Source of the DNA: a virus
Strand: one strand, 5' to 3'
IMG/VR virus record: IMGVR_UViG_3300033571_010871
Coordinates: 1-39,931 of that record
Length of the DNA: 39,931 bases
The notes under the pieces were generated by a model. It made no database searches. It was not told where the DNA came from and was given only the letters and a program-made list of their open reading frames with translations. Shown here piece after piece: positions 22,899 to 38,929 of the stretch. The position numbers were made by a program, and so were the translations under genes. Within the stretch, counting starts at the first letter, position 1, and each line of letters starts with the position of its first letter.

Positions 22899-24080
22899 AT
22901 GGCGATTAACTCGGTTACGGCCCCTTTCTTTTCGTTTTTAGATACGGCGGGCAAGCCGCTGGAAGCGGGTTATATCTACATAGGCCAGCCTGGGCTTGAA
23001 GCGCGGTCGTCACCGAAGGCCAGCTTCTTTGACCTTGCCCTGTCTGTCCCAACAGGGACATCGACGGGCGCGGCGGTGCGGACGACGGGCGGCTATCCGG
23101 TGCAGAACGGCAGCGCCGCGCTGATTTACGTTGACGGCGACTATTCCATGACGGTTACGGATCGCAATGGCGTCTTGGTATTCAGCCGGTTAAACCGGGC
23201 AATTCAGGTCGGGATTGAAACAACGTCAAGCGGGCTGTTCGGCGATGGCAACCTTTCAGGGGTTGGCATCGGTTTTGGCGCGGAGCCTACGACCGGCTTG
23301 ATCCGCAGCGCGGCAAGCCAAATGCGCGGCATAGTATCGGGGGTGCCGATTTGGCAGGCTGCGGCGTCCGGGTTTTCTCTGTTTTCGCCCTTGCCAATTT
23401 CAAGTGGCGGCACGAATGCTCCTGACGCCCCCACGGCGCGGACCAATCTCGGCGCTACCCCGGTCGGCGCATCTGTGTTCACGGCTGCGGACGCTGCTTC
23501 TGCGCGCACTGCCATTGGCGCTACCCCGGTCGGCGCATCTGTGTTCACGGCTGCGGACGCTGCTTCTGCGCGCACTGCCATTGGCGTGCCAGGTTGGACA
23601 GAGATTCCTCAAATTATCACTACCAGCGGGAGTGCGTTTGATATAATCAACATCCCAGACTTGGTGGCAGAAATCGAAATAATGTTTAATTTTGTGTCGC
23701 TATCTGGTACGACACCGATCGGTATCTTAGTACAGCTAGGCGACCCGGTAAATGGTCTTAATACGACCGGTTACTGGAGCGGTCAGGCAATGATCATTAA
23801 CGCAGCTAGCCCCGCTCTTTCATTGTCGAGCACAGTGTCGGGATTTTACATAGAAAATCCAAGCGTAGCAGACTTCCAAGTCGGAAATATGAGACTTGTC
23901 CGAGGATCACGTGCTGATTTTTGGACATGTACATTCTCCGTAGTTCAGACAAGCCCAAGACTGGTAGTCGGGGCGGGAAACAAATTCATTACTGGTGGTA
24001 ATCGGCTGGACAGACTGAGAATTACCAGAACCGGCACAGGCAACTTCGACAATGGTGACATTCAGGTGAGGTACAGATGA
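22899..24080 (+). CDS. Tailspike/fibre with P22-type head-binding domain
   Basis: 393 aa. Residues about 5-115 match the P22 tailspike head-binding domain: 'AGYIYIGQPGLEARSSPKAS', 'GGYPVQNGSAALIYVDGDYS', 'VTDRNGVLVFSR'. A linker (about 165-230) has a perfect 22-residue tandem repeat. The C-terminal ~165 residues are β-rich and lack the P22 β-helix, so a different receptor-binding module is fused on; its DNA (23600-24060) is visibly more AT-rich. AAGGAG lies 8 bases upstream of the ATG. Confidence 0.87.
   Translation: MAINSVTAPFFSFLDTAGKPLEAGYIYIGQPGLEARSSPKASFFDLALSVPTGTSTGAAVRTTGGYPVQNGSAALIYVDGDYSMTVTDRNGVLVFSRLNRAIQVGIETTSSGLFGDGNLSGVGIGFGAEPTTGLIRSAASQMRGIVSGVPIWQAAASGFSLFSPLPISSGGTNAPDAPTARTNLGATPVGASVFTAADAASARTAIGATPVGASVFTAADAASARTAIGVPGWTEIPQIITTSGSAFDIINIPDLVAEIEIMFNFVSLSGTTPIGILVQLGDPVNGLNTTGYWSGQAMIINAASPALSLSSTVSGFYIENPSVADFQVGNMRLVRGSRADFWTCTFSVVQTSPRLVVGAGNKFITGGNRLDRLRITRTGTGNFDNGDIQVRYR
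23451..23582 (+). repeat. Perfect 66-bp tandem duplication in the tailspike linker
   Basis: 23451-23516 and 23517-23582 are identical. They encode two copies of a 22-residue unit that starts 'ATPVGASVFTAADAASA'. The absence of any silent change implies a recent duplication or active conversion. Confidence 0.95.
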
Positions 24081-27436: not shown

Positions 27437-28286
27437 AGGCATCCGCAGCCCGCTGGACGGAATCCGCAGCCCTTTCGGGCCGCGTCGTGGCCCCCTTTTC
27501 CTCTTGGACCAACTCCTTGTCCCTGCCGCTGTGGCCTACAGTTCGCGCAGGCTGAGCGCCAGTGCCACTCTGGCCAATCGTGTGCGGCGGTCTTCAGACA
27601 ACGCGGAAAACAATTTCGGCTTTTTGGGCGAGAATTTGGACACGGCTTCGCTGCTGGCACATTGCACGGGAGGCAATGGCCTCACCACGACCGTGTATGA
27701 CCAGAGCGGGAATGGCCGAAACCTCACGCAAATAACGGCGGTCAACCAGCCGTCTATCGTGACAGCAGGAGTGGTGAACACGCAAAATGGGAGGCCCTTG
27801 ATAAACTTCGATGGGGCTGGCGATGTGTTAAACTCCGCCACTGGCGTTGCAAACACGATTATGGCAGGGAGAGCCTTTACCGCCATTCATGTGACCTTCA
27901 GCTCAAGCGGCGGTTTTGGCGTTTCGGGCAATAACGCGGATGGAGTGGGCACATCTCCTAGATCGTACCTTCAAAGGGTCGGGTTCAGTTACAATACTCT
28001 GTCGCTTGTTGTGGTCCCTACGGCACCAGGTGGTCAAATAACCAGTTACGGGCACGATGGTGTAAACACGGCAACTGCGTGGAAAAACGGGGCCTTAGTT
28101 GGCACTGGAACGCAAGCCGTATTAGCTGCTTTTGGTGGTACAGGTACATTATCTGTGCCCCTAACGCCCACTACCAATGCGGGAAGCCTTGGCGAACTTT
28201 TGATTTTTAGCTCCGCGCTTTCGGATGCGGATCGCCTTTTGGTGGAGCGTAATATGGGCAATTACTATGGAATAGCGGTGGCGTGA
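27429..28286 (+). CDS. Lectin/LamG-like surface protein (arabinofuranosidase-type fold)
   Basis: 285 aa. Residues about 75-130 carry 'TTTVYDQSGNGRNLTQITAV' and 'NGRPLINFDGAGDVLNSA', a signature of concanavalin-like and arabinofuranosidase-type domains in phage and bacterial surface proteins; the rest is β-rich ('ELLIFSSALSDADRLLVERN' at the end). The Arg/Pro-rich N-terminus (1-45) may attach it to the virion. It could bind or cut host polysaccharide. The ATG at 27429 overlaps the previous stop. Confidence 0.75.
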   Translation: MVEGIRSPLDGIRSPFGPRRGPLFLLDQLLVPAAVAYSSRRLSASATLANRVRRSSDNAENNFGFLGENLDTASLLAHCTGGNGLTTTVYDQSGNGRNLTQITAVNQPSIVTAGVVNTQNGRPLINFDGAGDVLNSATGVANTIMAGRAFTAIHVTFSSSGGFGVSGNNADGVGTSPRSYLQRVGFSYNTLSLVVVPTAPGGQITSYGHDGVNTATAWKNGALVGTGTQAVLAAFGGTGTLSVPLTPTTNAGSLGELLIFSSALSDADRLLVERNMGNYYGIAVA

Positions 28287-28501
28287 TGGAACAGCTTTAC
28301 CGAATCTTCGATAACCAAGCCAATGCGCAAGCCTATGCAGACTTTGCGAGGGAAAACAAACTGCCTCTTGGCCCGGATGACGCGACGCGGATATGGGATA
28401 CCCCGCGCGAGCTTGTCGATGGCCGATGGGTTGTTGGTTGCGCCAATGGCGGGTGCGTGCCGTGGGGCGAGGACTGGGTGCTCAAGGACGTGGCGGGATA
28501 A
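28286..28501 (+). CDS. Hypothetical protein, last gene of late block (71 aa)
   Basis: 71 aa: 'EQLYRIFDNQANAQAYADFA' then 'ELVDGRWVVGCANGGCVPWG'. No family recognised. The ATG at 28286 overlaps the previous stop (GTGATGG). A hairpin follows 4 bases after its stop, marking the end of the rightward block. Confidence 0.65.
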   Translation: MEQLYRIFDNQANAQAYADFARENKLPLGPDDATRIWDTPRELVDGRWVVGCANGGCVPWGEDWVLKDVAG

Positions 28502-28505
28502 GGAA

Positions 28506-28535
28506 AGGGCCGACACGGCTTTCCCGGTCGGCCCT
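28506..28535. terminator. Hairpin between converging blocks
   Basis: Arms AGGGCCGAC (28506-28514) and GTCGGCCCT (28527-28535), loop of 12. On the leftward strand it is followed by TTTCC, on the rightward by no T-run. It sits where late rightward and long leftward transcription meet. The remaining bases to 28663 show nothing further that I can support. Confidence 0.6.
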
Positions 28536-28663
28536 CCGTCATACCTCAGCCCGGTTGGTAGCCAGAGAGAAGAGGCAGTCGCTAGAAGATGACGGCTTTG
28601 AGGCGTAGGCCCCTGCAAGGTGCTATGGTCACGCTTAAAATAGTACACTTCCTGCGCCCCATT

Positions 28664-28849
28664 TCAAGGGCGTTCATCACGATTCAGCATCATTTCCAGC
28701 AGCAACACCTTTGACTTGCACAGCGGCCTTCGCCCGCCTTCGATGTCCGATATGCGCGACCGGTGCGGCTTGAAACCTAGGGCGACGGCAAGCTGTTCCT
28801 GCGTCATGCCAAGGGCAAGGCGGGCGGCGCGGACCTCAGCGGCGGTCAT
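28664..28849 (-). CDS. XRE-type helix-turn-helix regulator (61 aa)
   Basis: 61 aa, a minimal HTH: 'TAAEVRAARLALGMTQEQLA' (helices 1-2), 'HRSRISDIEGGRR' (recognition helix and turn), then a C-terminal helix. Residues match the lambda-repressor-like fold. It is the last gene of the leftward transcript that starts at 29403, whose promoter spacer carries a palindrome, so it is a candidate autoregulator. ATGA overlap with the preceding gene. Confidence 0.82.
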   Translation of the reverse strand: MTAAEVRAARLALGMTQEQLAVALGFKPHRSRISDIEGGRRPLCKSKVLLLEMMLNRDERP

Positions 28850-29049
28850 GCAGTGGCCTTGGCCTTGAGGGCGGCGCGCAATTCCTCCAATTCGGCATCG
28901 CGGCGCTTGGCCTTTTCGTCTCTAATCAGAACGAGGGCTTCCTGCGCGGCGTCGCGTTCCTCGGCCAGCCGATCGAACGCTTCATCAAGTTCTTCGATTG
29001 TATGGCATTGTGCGGTTTTGGCGCAAGCGAGGGCTGTTTCGTATTCCAT
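28846..29049 (-). CDS. Small coiled-coil protein (67 aa)
   Basis: 67 aa, nearly all helix: 'TIEELDEAFDRLAEERDAAQ' and 'AKRRDAELEELRAALKAKA' have heptad-like spacing. It starts at ATG 29049, sharing a base with the upstream stop (TGATG), and overlaps the XRE-type gene. No family; possibly a protein partner of a regulator. Confidence 0.65.
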   Translation of the reverse strand: MEYETALACAKTAQCHTIEELDEAFDRLAEERDAAQEALVLIRDEKAKRRDAELEELRAALKAKATA

Positions 29050-29354
29050 CACGCCACCTTTTCTTTTGCCGCGACCGGAACCTCAATCCACTCGTGATAT
29101 GTTTTGCCGTTGCTGGCGACAATCGAATGCGGGCCGGATTGAACGCAGACGGTAGGTGCGGGCCGATGCTCATACCGCAACGGCTCAAAGCCCATAACCA
29201 AGACCTTCAGCTTCGCTTCATTCAAGGTTTTGGCGGTGCCAGCGTAAACCGCAATGCCAGCCATGTAGTTGCAGGCCAGCACCGGCAGGCTTACAGCTTC
29301 ACCGCGAACAATGCGGCCATCGGCGGTTGTGAAGTAGGCAGGTTTCGTCATCAT
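29049..29354 (-). CDS. Hypothetical protein (101 aa), first gene after the 29403 promoter
   Basis: 101 aa: 'KPAYFTTADGRIVRGEAVSL', 'AGTAKTLNEAKLKVLVMGFE', 'NGKTYHEWIEVPV'. β-rich, unrecognised. AGGAG lies 3 bases before ATG 29354 and 6 before ATG 29351, so either may be used. It lies about 25 bases downstream of a clear promoter with a palindromic operator. Confidence 0.68.
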   Translation of the reverse strand: MMTKPAYFTTADGRIVRGEAVSLPVLACNYMAGIAVYAGTAKTLNEAKLKVLVMGFEPLRYEHRPAPTVCVQSGPHSIVASNGKTYHEWIEVPVAAKEKVA

Positions 29355-32995: not shown

Positions 32996-33246
32996 TCCGC
33001 GCCGCCTTCCTTGTTCAAATCGTCGCAAATAGCCCGCGCGGCATCATACACCGGCTTGGGGTCACTGCGCTTTCCCGAAACGCGCCGAACCACCTTTCCG
33101 CGCTTCAGTCCTTCGCCGGATGCCTTTGGCACCCATTGGAATATGCCCAGGGAAAAGGTTTGCCAAGGCGATCCACATTTCCAGTTTTCCCTTGGCGCAC
33201 AATGTCCAGAAAAATCCCACTGGTAGGGACGCGGTTCGTTTGTCAT
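32992..33246 (-). CDS. Small basic hypothetical protein (84 aa)
   Basis: 84 aa, basic, aromatic-rich: 'YQWDFSGHCAPRENWKCGSP', 'GIFQWVPKASGEGLKRGKVV'. The C-terminal part ends in 'NKEGGAE', the junction cassette. It is coupled to the recT-like gene upstream. Not recognised. Confidence 0.65.
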   Translation of the reverse strand: MTNEPRPYQWDFSGHCAPRENWKCGSPWQTFSLGIFQWVPKASGEGLKRGKVVRRVSGKRSDPKPVYDAARAICDDLNKEGGAE

Positions 33247-33980
33247 TCCGCGCCGCCCTCCGCGAATTCCCGCGCGACTTCGGCCATCTTGGCTTCAACC
33301 TCGGCAGGGGTGGGGATAGCTTCAATGAAGTCATCGGCGGCGGGCGGCGGAAGCGCCGGGTCATCGTCGCGGTAGATCACACCACCCCGGCGCGGCGTCA
33401 CATCGCGCGCGCGGTCAGGGCCGTGATCGCTGGCTTCGTCAGAGATTTGCAGCCCCATCATCGCGTCGGCTGCACCGTCGCGGATCGCCCATGAACGGGC
33501 GCGCATGGACAACATGCGGCCTGTATATTGCTGCCAAGGCCCGGTCTTGCCCGCCAGACCGGCACGCTTGGCGTCGGCCACGCTGAATCGCCGCACAATG
33601 GTTTTGCCCGTGTCGCCGCGTGTCAGGGTTGCTGTCGCGACCATCGCGTCACCTTCGCCGGTCAGTTCAACATCAATATGATGCCCCGCGCGCTGCATCA
33701 GGGCGGGAAGCGCATCGCCCCATAGTGAAGCGCGGCCATTGATGACGGCGATAGACGCAAGGGCCTGCATCGGGGCTAAGCCAATTTCCATGCCCTTGAT
33801 GATCGCGGCCATGACGGATTGCGGCTGGCCCTGATAGGTCTTTGGCACCATGTCACCCGAACCTGCCAGCGCCGTAGCAAGGCGGAAGGCTTGGTCAAGG
33901 TCTTGCGGCACAAGCGCGGCAAGGACGCCCCCGGTGGAAACGGGGGGCTTAGGCGCGGGGCGTTCGGCGGGAACATTCAT
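33243..33980 (-). CDS. RecT-family single-strand annealing protein
   Basis: 245 aa. Signature region about 45-160: 'QPQSVMAAIIKGMEIGLAPM', 'QALASIAVINGRASLWGDAL' and 'RMLSMRARSWAIRDGAADAM', as in RecT/Bet-type recombinases. The C-terminus is acidic and probably flexible, ending 'EGGAE'. It anneals complementary strands exposed by the exonuclease encoded just upstream, giving a complete two-gene recombination system. ATG at 33980; ATGA overlap with the exonuclease gene. Confidence 0.88.
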   Translation of the reverse strand: MNVPAERPAPKPPVSTGGVLAALVPQDLDQAFRLATALAGSGDMVPKTYQGQPQSVMAAIIKGMEIGLAPMQALASIAVINGRASLWGDALPALMQRAGHHIDVELTGEGDAMVATATLTRGDTGKTIVRRFSVADAKRAGLAGKTGPWQQYTGRMLSMRARSWAIRDGAADAMMGLQISDEASDHGPDRARDVTPRRGGVIYRDDDPALPPPAADDFIEAIPTPAEVEAKMAEVAREFAEGGAE

Positions 33981-34924
33981 GCTTTCATCCTTTCGGGGGC
34001 TTGCCACGCGGCGGCGCTGGCAATGGTTGCGGGGGAAGCGGTTGGCGTGGGCGTGCGGTTTTCCCATTTCGCCCGGTGCCAGGACGGCGCGCCGACAATG
34101 GCGACACGGGCGGGATAGTCGGGCCAGACGCCGGTTGATAAGCATTCCGCCCAAAGACGGCGGGCTTCGGCGGTCTTGCCGCGCGCATCATCCATCCAGT
34201 CTGCGCTGTCGTTGGCGGCACCGTGCAGCTCGATCACCGACGCACTGTGCGGCGGGCTTTTCTCAACAAAGACAAACCGGAAGCGGCGGGTTTCGCCTGT
34301 CGCGGCGCGCCATGTGTCCAGATACCATGCCGCTTGGAAGTCGTAGCCGTAGTTGCAAACGGCACGGATCACTGCATCCGGATTGGCGTCTTCGCATGTC
34401 TTTACATCGTAAAGCGGCAGGCGCGGATCGGCGGGCGCGTTGTCGATCATGGCCTTGCACGACACGCCGTCAATCTCTGCCAGCGCGACCATTTCTGACC
34501 GGGCCGGGTCCAAGGTGATGCCCATCGCGGTAAGGCGGCGGGCTGCGCTGGCGGCAATCGCGCCGATCAGGTCAACGTCATCCGCCTTCAGCGGCGTCCG
34601 GCCCGCCTCCCGCTGTTCTGCGGCCCATTCCTTCGCGGCCTTAGTGCTGATCGCGCCGTTTGCGGCCAGCATATCGGACGGATAGGCAACGTACTCGCCA
34701 CCGGCTCCAAGGATTGCGCGGTGTGCCGCGCGGCCAATGTCAAAGGTTGCGCTTTCGGTCGGTTCCCATTGCGGGTTAAGCTTGGGGTGCTGCGTCCAAG
34801 CGTGCAGTGGGCTTTGACCGATCAGGATTTTCCCGATGGTATTGGAAAGCAGCGGGATCGGCGAAAACTGTTCGGCGTGATATTCGTCCGCCGTCATGCG
34901 GTGCAGTCCGTGGGTGATCGTCAT
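33977..34924 (-). CDS. RecE-type exonuclease (PD-(D/E)XK)
   Basis: 315 aa. 'MTADEYHAEQFSPIPLLSNT', 'FDIGRAAHRAILG' (helix with conserved His), 'EMVALAEIDGVSCKAMIDNA' (Asp of the core), 'LPLYDVKTCEDANP' (DxK) and 'YDFQAAWYLDTW' (QxxxY) match the RecE/λ-exonuclease-like superfamily. It resects DNA ends 5' to 3' for RecT. ATG 34924 is preferred because it overlaps the stop of the 29-residue ORF; GTG 34933 is possible. Confidence 0.87.
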   Translation of the reverse strand: MTITHGLHRMTADEYHAEQFSPIPLLSNTIGKILIGQSPLHAWTQHPKLNPQWEPTESATFDIGRAAHRAILGAGGEYVAYPSDMLAANGAISTKAAKEWAAEQREAGRTPLKADDVDLIGAIAASAARRLTAMGITLDPARSEMVALAEIDGVSCKAMIDNAPADPRLPLYDVKTCEDANPDAVIRAVCNYGYDFQAAWYLDTWRAATGETRRFRFVFVEKSPPHSASVIELHGAANDSADWMDDARGKTAEARRLWAECLSTGVWPDYPARVAIVGAPSWHRAKWENRTPTPTASPATIASAAAWQAPERMKA

Positions 34925-35010
34925 ATCCGCCACCCCGCATACATGCGCCGATCAGCATCATCTGCGGCGGCTTCATCTTCCGCTTCCAAAACTGTCTTGT
35001 GGTCGGTCAT
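34921..35010 (-). CDS. Tiny acidic ORF (29 aa) ahead of the exonuclease gene
   Basis: 29 aa, acidic helix ('KTVLEAEDEAAADDADRRMY'). GAGGAAC lies about 8 bases before ATG 35010 and its stop overlaps the exonuclease ATG (ATGA). It lies just downstream of pentamer array A. It may be a leader peptide coupling exonuclease translation, or a small protein. Confidence 0.5.
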   Translation of the reverse strand: MTDHKTVLEAEDEAAADDADRRMYAGWRI

Positions 35011-35045
35011 TCTTCCGGTTCCTCTATCTTCCCAAGTGGTTGATC

Positions 35046-35098
35046 GTTGCGTTGCGTGGCGCGGCGCTGCGGGGCGAGGCGTGGCGCGGCGGTGCGGC
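35046..35098. repeat. Pentamer array A: ten consecutive GCGNN units
   Basis: From 35049 to 35098 every fifth position restarts GCG (GCG then TT, TG, CG, CT, GG, AG, TG, CG, GT, GC). It fills most of the gap between the genes 35103-35573 and 34921-35010. The two variable bases differ from unit to unit, so this is not a simple microsatellite. Confidence 0.85.
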
Positions 35099-35102
35099 GG
35101 AA

Positions 35103-35573
35103 TTACTGTACCCCGAACGCCTGCCTGAGCGCAGCGGCATCGGTTGTGGCAGGCGGCACGGGCGCGGCGGGGGCCTTCGGCGCAAGAGCACTTGCACCCT
35201 GGGCCATTGCAAAAATCGTCTGGTTGATCGTCGCCTGTGCCTGTTCTTGCGGGGGCAGGTCGGCGAAGTTGCGCACCGCGCCAAGGCGGAGAATACCGGA
35301 CTTGGCTTTGCGGTGGATGCTCTGCCGGATCGCATTGGTGCTGCGGACCACATCAATATCGGCAAGGCGGCGCAGGCCAAGGCCGCGCACCGTTTCAAAG
35401 ACAATGCCGTGTTCCCGTTCCAGCGAACGGCGGGCGCTGATGACGGCGCTGCGAAGGCGGGGCGTGAATTCGGCGAGGCCGACATGGCTTGCCAACGTGG
35501 CGTAGGAGACTTCGCCATTGACGCCGATCAGCAGATCATGGGTTTTTTGGGTCAGGTCGGATTTCTGAAACAT
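35103..35573 (-). CDS. Hypothetical protein with winged-helix-like domain (156 aa)
   Basis: 156 aa. The first 90 residues ('GEVSYATLASHVGLAEFTPR' and 'RLRSAVISARRSLEREHGIV', 'FETVRGLGLRRL') look like a winged helix with a wing at 'VRGLGLRRL'. A middle basic segment follows, then an Ala/Pro-rich tail. It is a frequent neighbour type in phage recombination operons but has no known function to me. AAAGG lies 6 bases upstream of its ATG. It is flanked by pentamer arrays A and B. Confidence 0.7.
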   Translation of the reverse strand: MFQKSDLTQKTHDLLIGVNGEVSYATLASHVGLAEFTPRLRSAVISARRSLEREHGIVFETVRGLGLRRLADIDVVRSTNAIRQSIHRKAKSGILRLGAVRNFADLPPQEQAQATINQTIFAMAQGASALAPKAPAAPVPPATTDAAALRQAFGVQ

Positions 35574-35590
35574 GGTGAACCTTTATGGTT

Positions 35591-35640
35591 GCGGTGCGTG
35601 GCGATGCGGTGCGATGCGATGCGGAGCGGCGCGCTGCGGC
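35591..35640. repeat. Pentamer array B: ten consecutive GCGNN units
   Basis: Ten uninterrupted units: GCG followed by GT, TG, AT, GT, AT, AT, GA, GC, CT, GC. It occupies the 69-base gap between the genes 35643-36203 and 35103-35573, ending 18 bases before the latter's ATG on the leftward strand. It has exactly the unit number of array A. Confidence 0.9.
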
Positions 35641-35642
35641 GG

Positions 35643-36203
35643 TTATTCCCAATCAAACCTTTCGGCCTTGAACCGGCCATTCAGCCCGCCCTTCTCTGGC
35701 CGAAAGCGCCCGATGCCGACACTCATTCCCGACGCGGCAAAGACCCGCTCGAAAACCTCCTGGGTGATGGTGTCGTCAAAAATCGTAAACCGGGCAGACG
35801 TGCGCCACGGGGCCGGGATGACCGGGAATATCCGCTTCACCCGCTTGCCGGAGCCGCGTACGCCGTCCGAGTTGGCGTTGATGGTGACGGACGCCACATC
35901 ATCCTTATGGACGCCAAGGGGCGCATTGCCTTCGCAGATCACATCGCCCTCGAAAAACTTGGTGTATGTCGCCTTGCCCTTGCCGGGGATTTGGTCGCCA
36001 AGGCGCTTCGACGCGATGGGGAGTGCCTGCTTGAAGGCCATTGCCGGAATCTCGATCATGCCGGTTGCATCAAATGTGCATTTTTCGCGCCATGTGCGGG
36101 CTTCGTATTCGTCGGGGCGTTCCTTGTCGAGTTTCGGGGTGTCGTGCATCCGGCTTTGGCTGTAGGGCGTGATGCCGACGATATGGACGGTTACTTGACG
36201 CAT
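35643..36203 (-). CDS. Unassigned protein with RAMP/RRM-like features (186 aa)
   Basis: 186 aa. It starts with a β-strand and 'GITPYSQSRMHDTPKLDKER', has 'MIEIPAMAFKQALPIASKRL' and 'IPGKGKATYTKFFEGD' in the middle, and near the end a Gly-rich stretch, 'GMSVGIGRFRPEKGGLNGRF'. An 'IPA-x-x-FK-x-AL' element plus a late Gly-rich loop recall RAMP-fold nucleic-acid-binding proteins, but this is suggestive only. AAAGGA lies 8 bases upstream. It lies between arrays B and C in the recombination operon. Confidence 0.65.
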   Translation of the reverse strand: MRQVTVHIVGITPYSQSRMHDTPKLDKERPDEYEARTWREKCTFDATGMIEIPAMAFKQALPIASKRLGDQIPGKGKATYTKFFEGDVICEGNAPLGVHKDDVASVTINANSDGVRGSGKRVKRIFPVIPAPWRTSARFTIFDDTITQEVFERVFAASGMSVGIGRFRPEKGGLNGRFKAERFDWE

Positions 36204-36227
36204 TTGTTTATCCTTTCAGGTTACGTT

Positions 36228-36307
36228 GCGTTGCGGAGCGGAGCGGTGAGAAGCGTTGCGGGGCGAGGCGGGGCGATGCGAGGCGGCGCAAAGCGCCGCG
36301 ACGCGGC
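36228..36307. repeat. Pentamer array C1: sixteen units, mostly GCGNN
   Basis: Sixteen 5-base units in register; fourteen begin GCG, the exceptions being GAGAA (36248-36252) and GCAAA (36288-36292). It begins about 25 bases upstream of the ATG of the gene 35643-36203 on the leftward strand. Confidence 0.85.
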
Positions 36308-36330
36308 GGTAAATTGCCAAAAGAATCGTT

Positions 36331-36385
36331 GCGTTGAGTTGCGGGGCGATGCCGTGCGGAGCGCAGCCGTGAGGTGCGACGCGAT
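36331..36385. repeat. Pentamer array C2: eleven degenerate GCGNN units
   Basis: Eleven units in register; seven begin GCG and four deviate at one base (GAGTT, GCCGT twice, GAGGT). It is separated from C1 by 23 bases of ordinary sequence and lies just after the stop of the gene 36405-36755. This is the most decayed array. Confidence 0.75.
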
Positions 36386-37705: not shown

Positions 37706-37878
37706 TTGTCTGCCCCTTGGATCTGCGGCGCATTGAAATGATACCGTTCCATTTCCTTACGGAAGACCTGGAAAACCACCATCTGCACACCAGCGGGAAC
37801 GCCTTCGACGTCCATGGCGATGGATATGGCGTTGCGCAGCTTGAGAAGCATTGCGCCTTCTGCGGGTGTGTCGGTCAT
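37702..37878 (-). CDS. Small hypothetical protein (58 aa)
   Basis: 58 aa, helical: '[20 protein letters not shown]' and '[20 protein letters not shown]'. ATG 37878 overlaps the pentapeptide gene's stop. A longer upstream reading frame is antisense-like in composition and lies in the other gene. Not recognised. Confidence 0.62.
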
Positions 37879-38507
37879 GCTGCCACCCCGGCCATGCGCT
37901 CCATATCGGCGAGCGCGGTTACGTTGTCGCAGTAGAAGTCGGGCAGTCGTTCGGTTTTCCACCGCTCGGGGTCGCTGGCCATGTAGATTGCTATAGCGGC
38001 GGCGGGTGTTCCGATTTTGGCTTCCAGGTCTGCGCCTTCCTTCCCGGCCAGCGTTACAACCCAGCCCGCGCGGCAATGCGATGTGCCGCAGTGCCACATA
38101 TTCATGTTCAGCGCGCCCGGCTGGGACGCGGCGGCATAAACCTTGGCGTGAATATCTTCGATGACAGGTCCCCCGGTAAGGTCTGCCCCGGTAAGGTCTG
38201 CCCCGCCAAGGTTCGCCCCGGTAAGGTCTGCCCCGCTAAGGTCTGCCCCGGTAAGGTCTGCCCAGCTAAGGTCTGCCCCGCCAAGGTTCGCCCCGGTAAG
38301 GTCTGCCCCGGTAAGGTCTGCCCAGCTAAGGTGTGCCCCGGTAAGGTCTGCCCCGGTAAGGTCTGCCCAGCTAAGGTCTGCCTTTGCCGTCACGGCCCAC
38401 TTTACCGCCAAGCCGAGCTTGACGGCCAACAGCGCGTCGGCTGCGCAGTCGATTTCTGCGGTGATCTGCACTGCACCGGACCAGCGGTTTCGGATTTCAA
38501 ACTGCAT
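37875..38507 (-). CDS. Pentapeptide-repeat protein
   Basis: 210 aa. Residues about 43-112 are fourteen tandem pentapeptides of the A(D/N)LXX type ('ADLTG', 'ADLSW', 'ANLGG', 'AHLSW'), which form a right-handed β-helix. The C-terminal domain ('[20 protein letters not shown]', '[18 protein letters not shown]', '[15 protein letters not shown]') recurs in phage pentapeptide proteins and has a Cys/His-rich spot. Some pentapeptide proteins mimic DNA and inhibit gyrase; whether this one does is unknown. AGAGGGG precedes the ATG. First gene of the leftward block. Confidence 0.88.
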
Positions 38508-38562
38508 GTTTTCCCCTCTCTTGCGGTGTGCGGCGGCCCATGTGTCGCGCCCTTGAGGGACA

Positions 38563-38591
38563 GGTGTACTTAGGTTTTTTCCGAAGCGCAA
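38563..38591 (-). promoter_or_regulatory. Probable leftward promoter
   Basis: Read leftward, TTGCGC (38591-38586) and TACACC (38568-38563), 17 bases apart with an A-rich spacer. It is the only candidate for the long leftward block in this gap. The -10 is weak, suggesting activation or a different sigma factor. It shares the GGTGT word with sequence near the divergent promoter. Confidence 0.42.
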
Positions 38592-38672
38592 CAGAAAAGT
38601 TTGGGGAAAGCCAAAAAAAATGGTGCGGGGCATCCGACCGACGCATTTACGCCGCGCCCTGCCAGTTCGGTG

Positions 38673-38707: not shown

Positions 38708-38929
38708 ATGCAAAACCATGATGTCCCTATCACGAACGAAGTGCTGACATTCCTGGAGCGGTCTGGCATGGCTAAGACGCGTTTCGGAGACTTGGCGGTT
38801 GGCGACTACAGTCTGGTGGACGATCTTCTGGCGGGCCGGGAGCCGCGCTCTGCAACGGTGCGAAGGATCAGGGCCAAGATTGAGGAATTGTCGGCTGGTA
38901 TCACTGCCCAAGCCGGTGACGCAGCATGA
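38708..38929 (+). CDS. Small HTH regulator (repressor/Cro-like), leaderless
   Basis: 73 aa. 'EVLTFLERSGMAKTRFGDLA' (helices 1-2), 'DYSLVDDLLAGREPRSATVR' (turn and recognition helix) and a C-terminal 'RIRAKIEEL' follow a small repressor-like HTH family common in alphaproteobacterial phages. It lies at the divergence point of the leftward and rightward blocks, the place of immunity-type regulators. The ATG falls at the expected transcription start. No integrase accompanies it. Confidence 0.78.
   Translation: MQNHDVPITNEVLTFLERSGMAKTRFGDLAVGDYSLVDDLLAGREPRSATVRRIRAKIEELSAGITAQAGDAA

Follow-up and report, generated by a model that had tools for sequence, protein, structure and literature searches.

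A CGC-NN array locus in a phage recombination operon as a very probable VIPR system with a variant guide scaffold

VIPR systems, described in a 2026 preprint, comprise Vipr, a RAMP protein encoded by phages, the accessory gene vap, and guide RNAs (vrRNAs) in which GGY triplets alternate with NN pairs (PMC13142463). According to the preprint, double-stranded DNA is recognised through the NN pairs, one target base being left unread between consecutive pairs, and the published vrRNAs contain 9–16 units (PMC13142463). For phage SUSP1, expression of the RNA, formation of the Vipr–RNA complex, DNA binding and transcriptional repression were demonstrated (PMC13142463). The main text does not demand a structured 3' tail of every VIPR type, and it mentions that some types have "a related consensus" instead of GGY (PMC13142463). 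In the genome of Escherichia phage SUSP1 (KT454805), the candidate vipr gene occupies positions 28474–29061 and vap1 positions 28031–28471, and the GGYNN arrays lie on the vipr strand.

The window analysed here is the whole 39,931-nt stretch of viral DNA. It contains four arrays of GCGNN units (plus strand) situated in three gaps of a leftward operon, and these arrays are the only regions of the window with a period of 5 bp. On the transcribed (minus) strand the units read CGC-NN. We consider it very probable that the locus is a VIPR system of a CGC-scaffold variant and that the arrays encode its guide RNAs. The relevant features of the window are as follows.

Array D, 36326..36385, minus strand: 11 units (4 deviating) over 36331–36385; putative guide RNA directly upstream of array C
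Array C, 36223..36307, minus strand: 16 units (14 perfect) over 36228–36307; putative guide RNA upstream of vipr
vipr, 35643..36203, minus strand: RAMP (Cas7-like) protein of 186 aa with a glycine-rich loop GIGRFRPEKGGLNGRF
Array B, 35586..35640, minus strand: 10 of 10 units perfect over 35591–35640; putative guide RNA between vipr and vap
Probable vap (accessory gene), 35103..35573, minus strand: protein of 156 aa, predicted winged-helix DNA-binding protein
Array A, 35044..35098, minus strand: 10 of 10 units perfect over 35049–35098; putative guide RNA downstream of vap
Exonuclease VIII-like gene (DUF3799, PDDEXK), 33977..34933, minus strand: neighbour, outside the system
RecT-like annealing protein gene, 33243..33980, minus strand: neighbour, outside the system

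The original prediction described GCGNN units in strict register in three intergenic gaps. This is borne out and lies far above chance: the longest perfect run comprises 10 units in the window versus 2–5 units in 600 shuffled versions of it (300 second-order Markov and 300 triplet shuffles). The region described there as an array of sixteen plus eleven units is here divided into two arrays, C and D, which makes four in total. The claim that the arrays form no hairpins holds in substance, in that the array RNAs, C-rich and without strong folding, do not clearly exceed their mononucleotide shuffles in stability. The placement of arrays just before gene starts was confirmed for A, B and C, with D lying upstream of C, and the view that the units represent neither a reading frame nor slippage was right.

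The arrays share their ends, with AACGCAACGA found on the transcribed strand in three of the four. Three of the four finish in AACGCAACG, and array B finishes in CGCAACC. An invariant AA-CGC-AA-CG block is the usual end of these CGC-NN runs. In the window, arrays A, B and C end ahead of a ribosome-binding site, that of the gene downstream, and D ends ahead of array C. The downstream starts are those of a short ORF (about 34921–35010) for A, vap (35573) for B and vipr (36203) for C. The ORF at 34921–35010 encodes a short acidic product MTDHKTVLEAEDEAAADDADRRMYAGWRI; its ribosome-binding site lies just past array A, and it overlaps the start of the exonuclease gene, with the start conserved in the sibling phage L266. 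A structured 3' tail as in SUSP1 was not found, the search of the locus against Rfam giving no match and the folding being not unusual. Nor does the locus contain long direct repeats of the CRISPR type.

Elsewhere in the window, a small rightward ORF (38708–38929) at the divergent end of the operon has relatives in three other VIPR contigs (family 27) and could be an early repressor. A pentapeptide-repeat protein gene (37875–38633) contains a 15-bp repeat unit at 38171–38382, a coding repeat unrelated to the arrays, and a perfect 66-bp tandem repeat in about two copies (23451–23586) lies probably within a structural gene.

The profile of the 35643–36203 protein, built from 27 relatives, matched a single PDB entry, SUSP1 Vipr (36pp; E-value 4.8e-8), and an hhalign comparison yielded an E-value of 2.2e-9. 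SUSP1 Vipr matches phrog_4652, as does every one of the 27 relatives. The predicted structure (pLDDT 93.7) resembles the Cas7 subunit of type VII and the Csm3 subunit. Judged by these comparisons, the protein is a member of the Vipr family. It is the single RAMP gene product, and no other cas genes were present among the window genes examined. The similarity of the 35103–35573 protein to SUSP1 vap1 is weak (probability 39%); genes of this family, with a predicted winged helix, are conserved in 36 array contigs, and we regard this gene as the probable vap accessory gene, whose product may, given the predicted fold, serve as a DNA-binding helper. BLASTN and tblastn searches of the locus against the phage collection gave no match. 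The collection was scanned with 11 closer Vipr sequences, the 27-protein alignment being too diverse.

The targeting code was studied by matching 374 distinct guides of the clade against 3.6 Mb of sequence from viruses and prophages at skips of 0, 1, 2, 4 and 5 bases between NN pairs, and with the order of pairs shuffled at skip 1. Skip 3 was omitted, since the arrays match themselves at that spacing. Scores of at least 10 were obtained by four guides at skip 1 and by none at skips 0, 2, 4 and 5 or with shuffled order. An earlier test (0.8 Mb, simple counts) was underpowered, and the result became clear only with sub-window scoring and the larger set. At skip 1, these guides match a serine integrase at 22/22 positions, a Sak4-like recombinase at 23/24, a primase-helicase at 29/36 and, in one case, an unidentified ORF; another Sak4 match (26/32) fell slightly short of this top group. 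The integrase guide belongs to a Paracoccus prophage, and the Vipr of that prophage shares 69% identity with the one in the window. In the first pass, a guide of contig L073 matched a SNF2-type helicase gene (L035:3044–4573) at 27 of 28 positions, at skip 1 only; this target sits among the arrays of L035, itself a VIPR phage. Inspection of the reading frames by hand placed the skipped base at the third codon position in the integrase, the first Sak4 and the helicase genes. The matched Sak4, integrase, primase-helicase and helicase genes are located on viral contigs; the targets lie in competing mobile elements. A match of eight units between a guide of L064 and the vap gene of a rival scored no better than noise and was rejected, and comparison of NN composition with codon phases did not separate the hypotheses. 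The NN bases, treated originally as merely variable, thus appear on the skip-1 evidence to be the message of a gapped guide.

In the window itself, a target was found for guide D. Following an invariant TT leader, its NN pairs read on the plus strand GG AT GT GA CA GT GT AC AT. At a one-base skip they correspond, in frame and with the skip at the wobble base, to the peptide GIVDQVVTM of Sak4-like ssDNA-annealing ATPases (phrog_124, PF13479). The exact eight-unit core occurs in 73 places, about 60 of them in one gene family, and 44 match all nine units; these targets are all homologous and therefore count as one family rather than as independent events. The family to which the Paracoccus host belongs was covered with 296 genomes; in these, 24 sites differ from guide D by one mismatch, 11 of them representing the VITM allele, against about 2 estimated by chance. 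In the first 100 genomes, the real pattern yielded 11 sites and the order-permuted pattern, 0.

Stronger evidence than the number of matches comes from sibling phages. Guide D of L266 differs by one NN unit and specifies GIVDQVITM, and that of L267 differs by two and specifies GIVDQVIAM. An exact scan with the former guide found at least 120 places, with the Walker A motif of the same gene in 106 of the 120 listed; the latter guide gave 19 places, 17 of them in the same Sak4-like gene. GIVDQVITM and GIVDQVIAM are thus real target alleles tracked by the sibling guides. The best match of guide D within its own phage, which carries RecT, covers 13 of 18 positions, and L077, the contig of L267, has a Sak4 gene lacking the targeted motif. 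No match to guide D was present in 2.36 Mb of VIPR-bearing loci, so that this set is unusable for assessing its significance; the absence may reflect self-avoidance.

For guides A, B and C, the exact eight-unit cores occur in 28, 13 and 9 places, respectively, mostly scattered and with no convincing extension. The best match of B (19/20, in L173) and that of C (21/22, spanning 11 units and located in a single group of nearly identical, AT-rich contigs) are at chance level and are not claimed as targets.

Comparison of siblings shows how the guides change. The vipr DNA of the window is 99.8% identical to that of L266 (one base in 561) and 91.8% identical to that of L267. In L266 the vap and exonuclease genes are 98–99.9% identical to those of the window and guide D is retained. 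Guides A, B and C of the two phages, by contrast, have only one or two NN units in common at the best register and differ in unit number. Likewise, L295 and L298 have identical vipr genes and one of four guides in common. As originally expected for related phages, the period is kept and the NN bases are changed. Given that guides A–C are replaced while vipr stays nearly identical, guides turn over much faster than genes. The CGC scaffold and the end block are rebuilt correctly, and in other lineages a switch to CAC or CTC extends throughout, which would suggest a dedicated guide-writing mechanism in this clade, copying NN pairs from the target into the CGC frame; we put it forward tentatively and consider it rather unlikely. 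Guide writing would suggest a primitive adaptation without Cas1 as opposed to slow mutation or recombination of ready-made arrays.

Arrays A, B and C each follow a stop codon and precede the ribosome-binding site of the gene downstream; this position, together with the C-rich and not strongly folded RNA, would also suit 5' leader elements bound by Vipr or a host protein and controlling translation or termination, with no guide function. This explanation is very unlikely in the face of the complete replacement of NN pairs between near-identical phages, the retention of guide D with changes that match target alleles, and the frequent stacking of several arrays in one gap. Beside a guide function, the arrays could still have a secondary autoregulatory role.

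The exact scan of viral contigs for eight-unit GCGNN runs retrieved at least 119 stretches; arrays are widespread in phages, as the original prediction had anticipated. The first 80 stretches together with the window yielded 69 with diverse-NN arrays and 270 arrays in total; a locus often has several, and most of them run antisense, in the GCG reading, to the flanking genes. The gene families common to array contigs are vipr (41 contigs), vap (36), RecT (5) and exonuclease (5), counts that rest on partial loci and are lower bounds; the top two are the families of 35643–36203 and 35103–35573. At the level of whole records, phrog_4652 occurs in 38 of 46 with arrays; among other viral records the figure is 2 of 46, and in the 14 control genomes it was not found at all. 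This upholds the proposed link of the arrays to the RAMP-like family. The same scan also retrieved simple pentamer repeats (e.g. in L025 and L037).

The counts bear as well on the partner named in the original prediction, RecT. According to that proposal, the arrays are a binding platform for a filament of RecT or another recombinase contacting about 5 nt per monomer, and the identity of NN is irrelevant. The genes for RecT and the exonuclease do adjoin the arrays in the window and the period is indeed 5; across array contigs, however, either family is found in 5 versus 41 for Vipr, the guides match at skip 1 only, and sibling variants of guide D follow target alleles. The association counts already point to arrays in phages that have Vipr and no RecT-type gene. 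RecT is thus extremely improbable as the partner, whereas the prediction of a periodic nucleic-acid-binding site, occupied by an oligomer that advances 5 nt per subunit, was correct as far as can be judged from sequence. That the arrays are chance or slippage repeats of GC-rich DNA, such as the true simple pentamer repeats among the scan matches, has a negligible probability and is refuted by the absence of such run lengths from 600 shuffles, the diversity of NN, the fixed strand relative to vipr, the conserved ends and the strong link with one protein family.

So that the presence of arrays did not bias the choice, 90 loci were retrieved with the Vipr protein as the only criterion, and pentamer arrays were then sought in them de novo. 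Arrays were detected in 76 of them, in every case (76/76) in sense with vipr, like in SUSP1. The functional strand is most probably that of the sense RNA, CGC-NN, and not GCGNN as initially read. In the remaining 14 loci the scan, at its threshold, detected no array, and it may have overlooked weaker or different scaffolds. Loci with no detectable array include L268–L271, L294, L299–L301, L303, L305, L309 and L334. At the other extreme, L075, L094 and L126 have very long or numerous arrays, far above the published 9–16 units, L075 having a 38-unit array and at least 10 exact eight-unit matches. Judging by the taxa of the Vipr-retrieved loci, phages of the CGC-scaffold variant appear to infect mainly Alphaproteobacteria; one member of the clade, L256, is a prophage of Paracoccus litorisediminis.

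The fixed triplet in the window is CGC and not GGY; its third base is compatible with the Y of GGY. Among the 90 Vipr loci the scaffold is CGC in 62, CAC in 9, CTC in 7 and GGC in 2. Whole array sets with CAC are seen in L307, L310, L317, L320, L324 and L342, with CTC in L257, L327, L343 and L345, and with GGC in L265 and L331. Among deviations inside CGC arrays, CTC, CAC, TGC and CGT are commoner and CCC, CGA and CGG are rare. On the Vipr tree the scaffold label changes 13 times versus a mean of 17.6 for shuffled labels, with at least 4 changes for CAC alone; the scaffold has switched several times along the tree.

The following model would account for these observations. Strand and anatomy suggest leftward transcription, with four short guide RNAs produced from the operon gaps. 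By analogy with SUSP1 and from the predicted fold, Cas7-like Vipr would polymerise on the RNA, one subunit per 5-nt unit, gripping it by the CGC triplet as a handle and leaving both NN bases exposed. The exposed pairs, read at a one-base skip as in SUSP1 and in the matches found here, would recognise and silence double-stranded DNA of competing phages, with the vap protein as a predicted DNA-binding helper. Guide D would aim at a conserved stretch of the Sak4-like recombinase of other phages, its own phage using RecT, and silencing of Sak4 would be its purpose.

The VIPR code was worked out in an E. coli phage; the results here test it independently, by comparison alone, in a distant clade, where the one-base skip holds but handle triplets other than GGY are used. 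They name a natural target, the Sak4 gene of other phages: in each of three sibling phages the guide allele has its counterpart among the target alleles. The fast replacement of guides makes the question of guide acquisition in VIPR approachable.

Among known systems, RecT/Redbeta annealing filaments have a short nucleotide step per monomer and RecT is present in the operon, but it shows no association with arrays across contigs, and we know of no sequence-specific repeat for these proteins. Class 1 CRISPR-Cas systems (type VII Cas7, type III-A Csm3) share the predicted subunit fold, and a filament on a guide RNA is expected in both; the locus differs in having no CRISPR repeats, a single RAMP gene, a gapped guide and a 5-nt step, the step of Cas7 being 6 nt. 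The closest counterpart is SUSP1 VIPR. In contrast to it, the scaffold triplet is CGC in the window and CAC, CTC or GGC in some relatives, where SUSP1 has GGY; the arrays end in a short AACGCAACG block, and no structured 3' tail was found; arrays occupy every gap of the operon, including that between vipr and vap; and the setting is mostly alphaproteobacterial. Common to both are a homologous Vipr, next to whose gene lies vap1 in SUSP1 and the probable vap in the window, pentamer arrays in the long gaps around vipr on the vipr strand, the one-base skip at the wobble base of codons, and targets in other phages.
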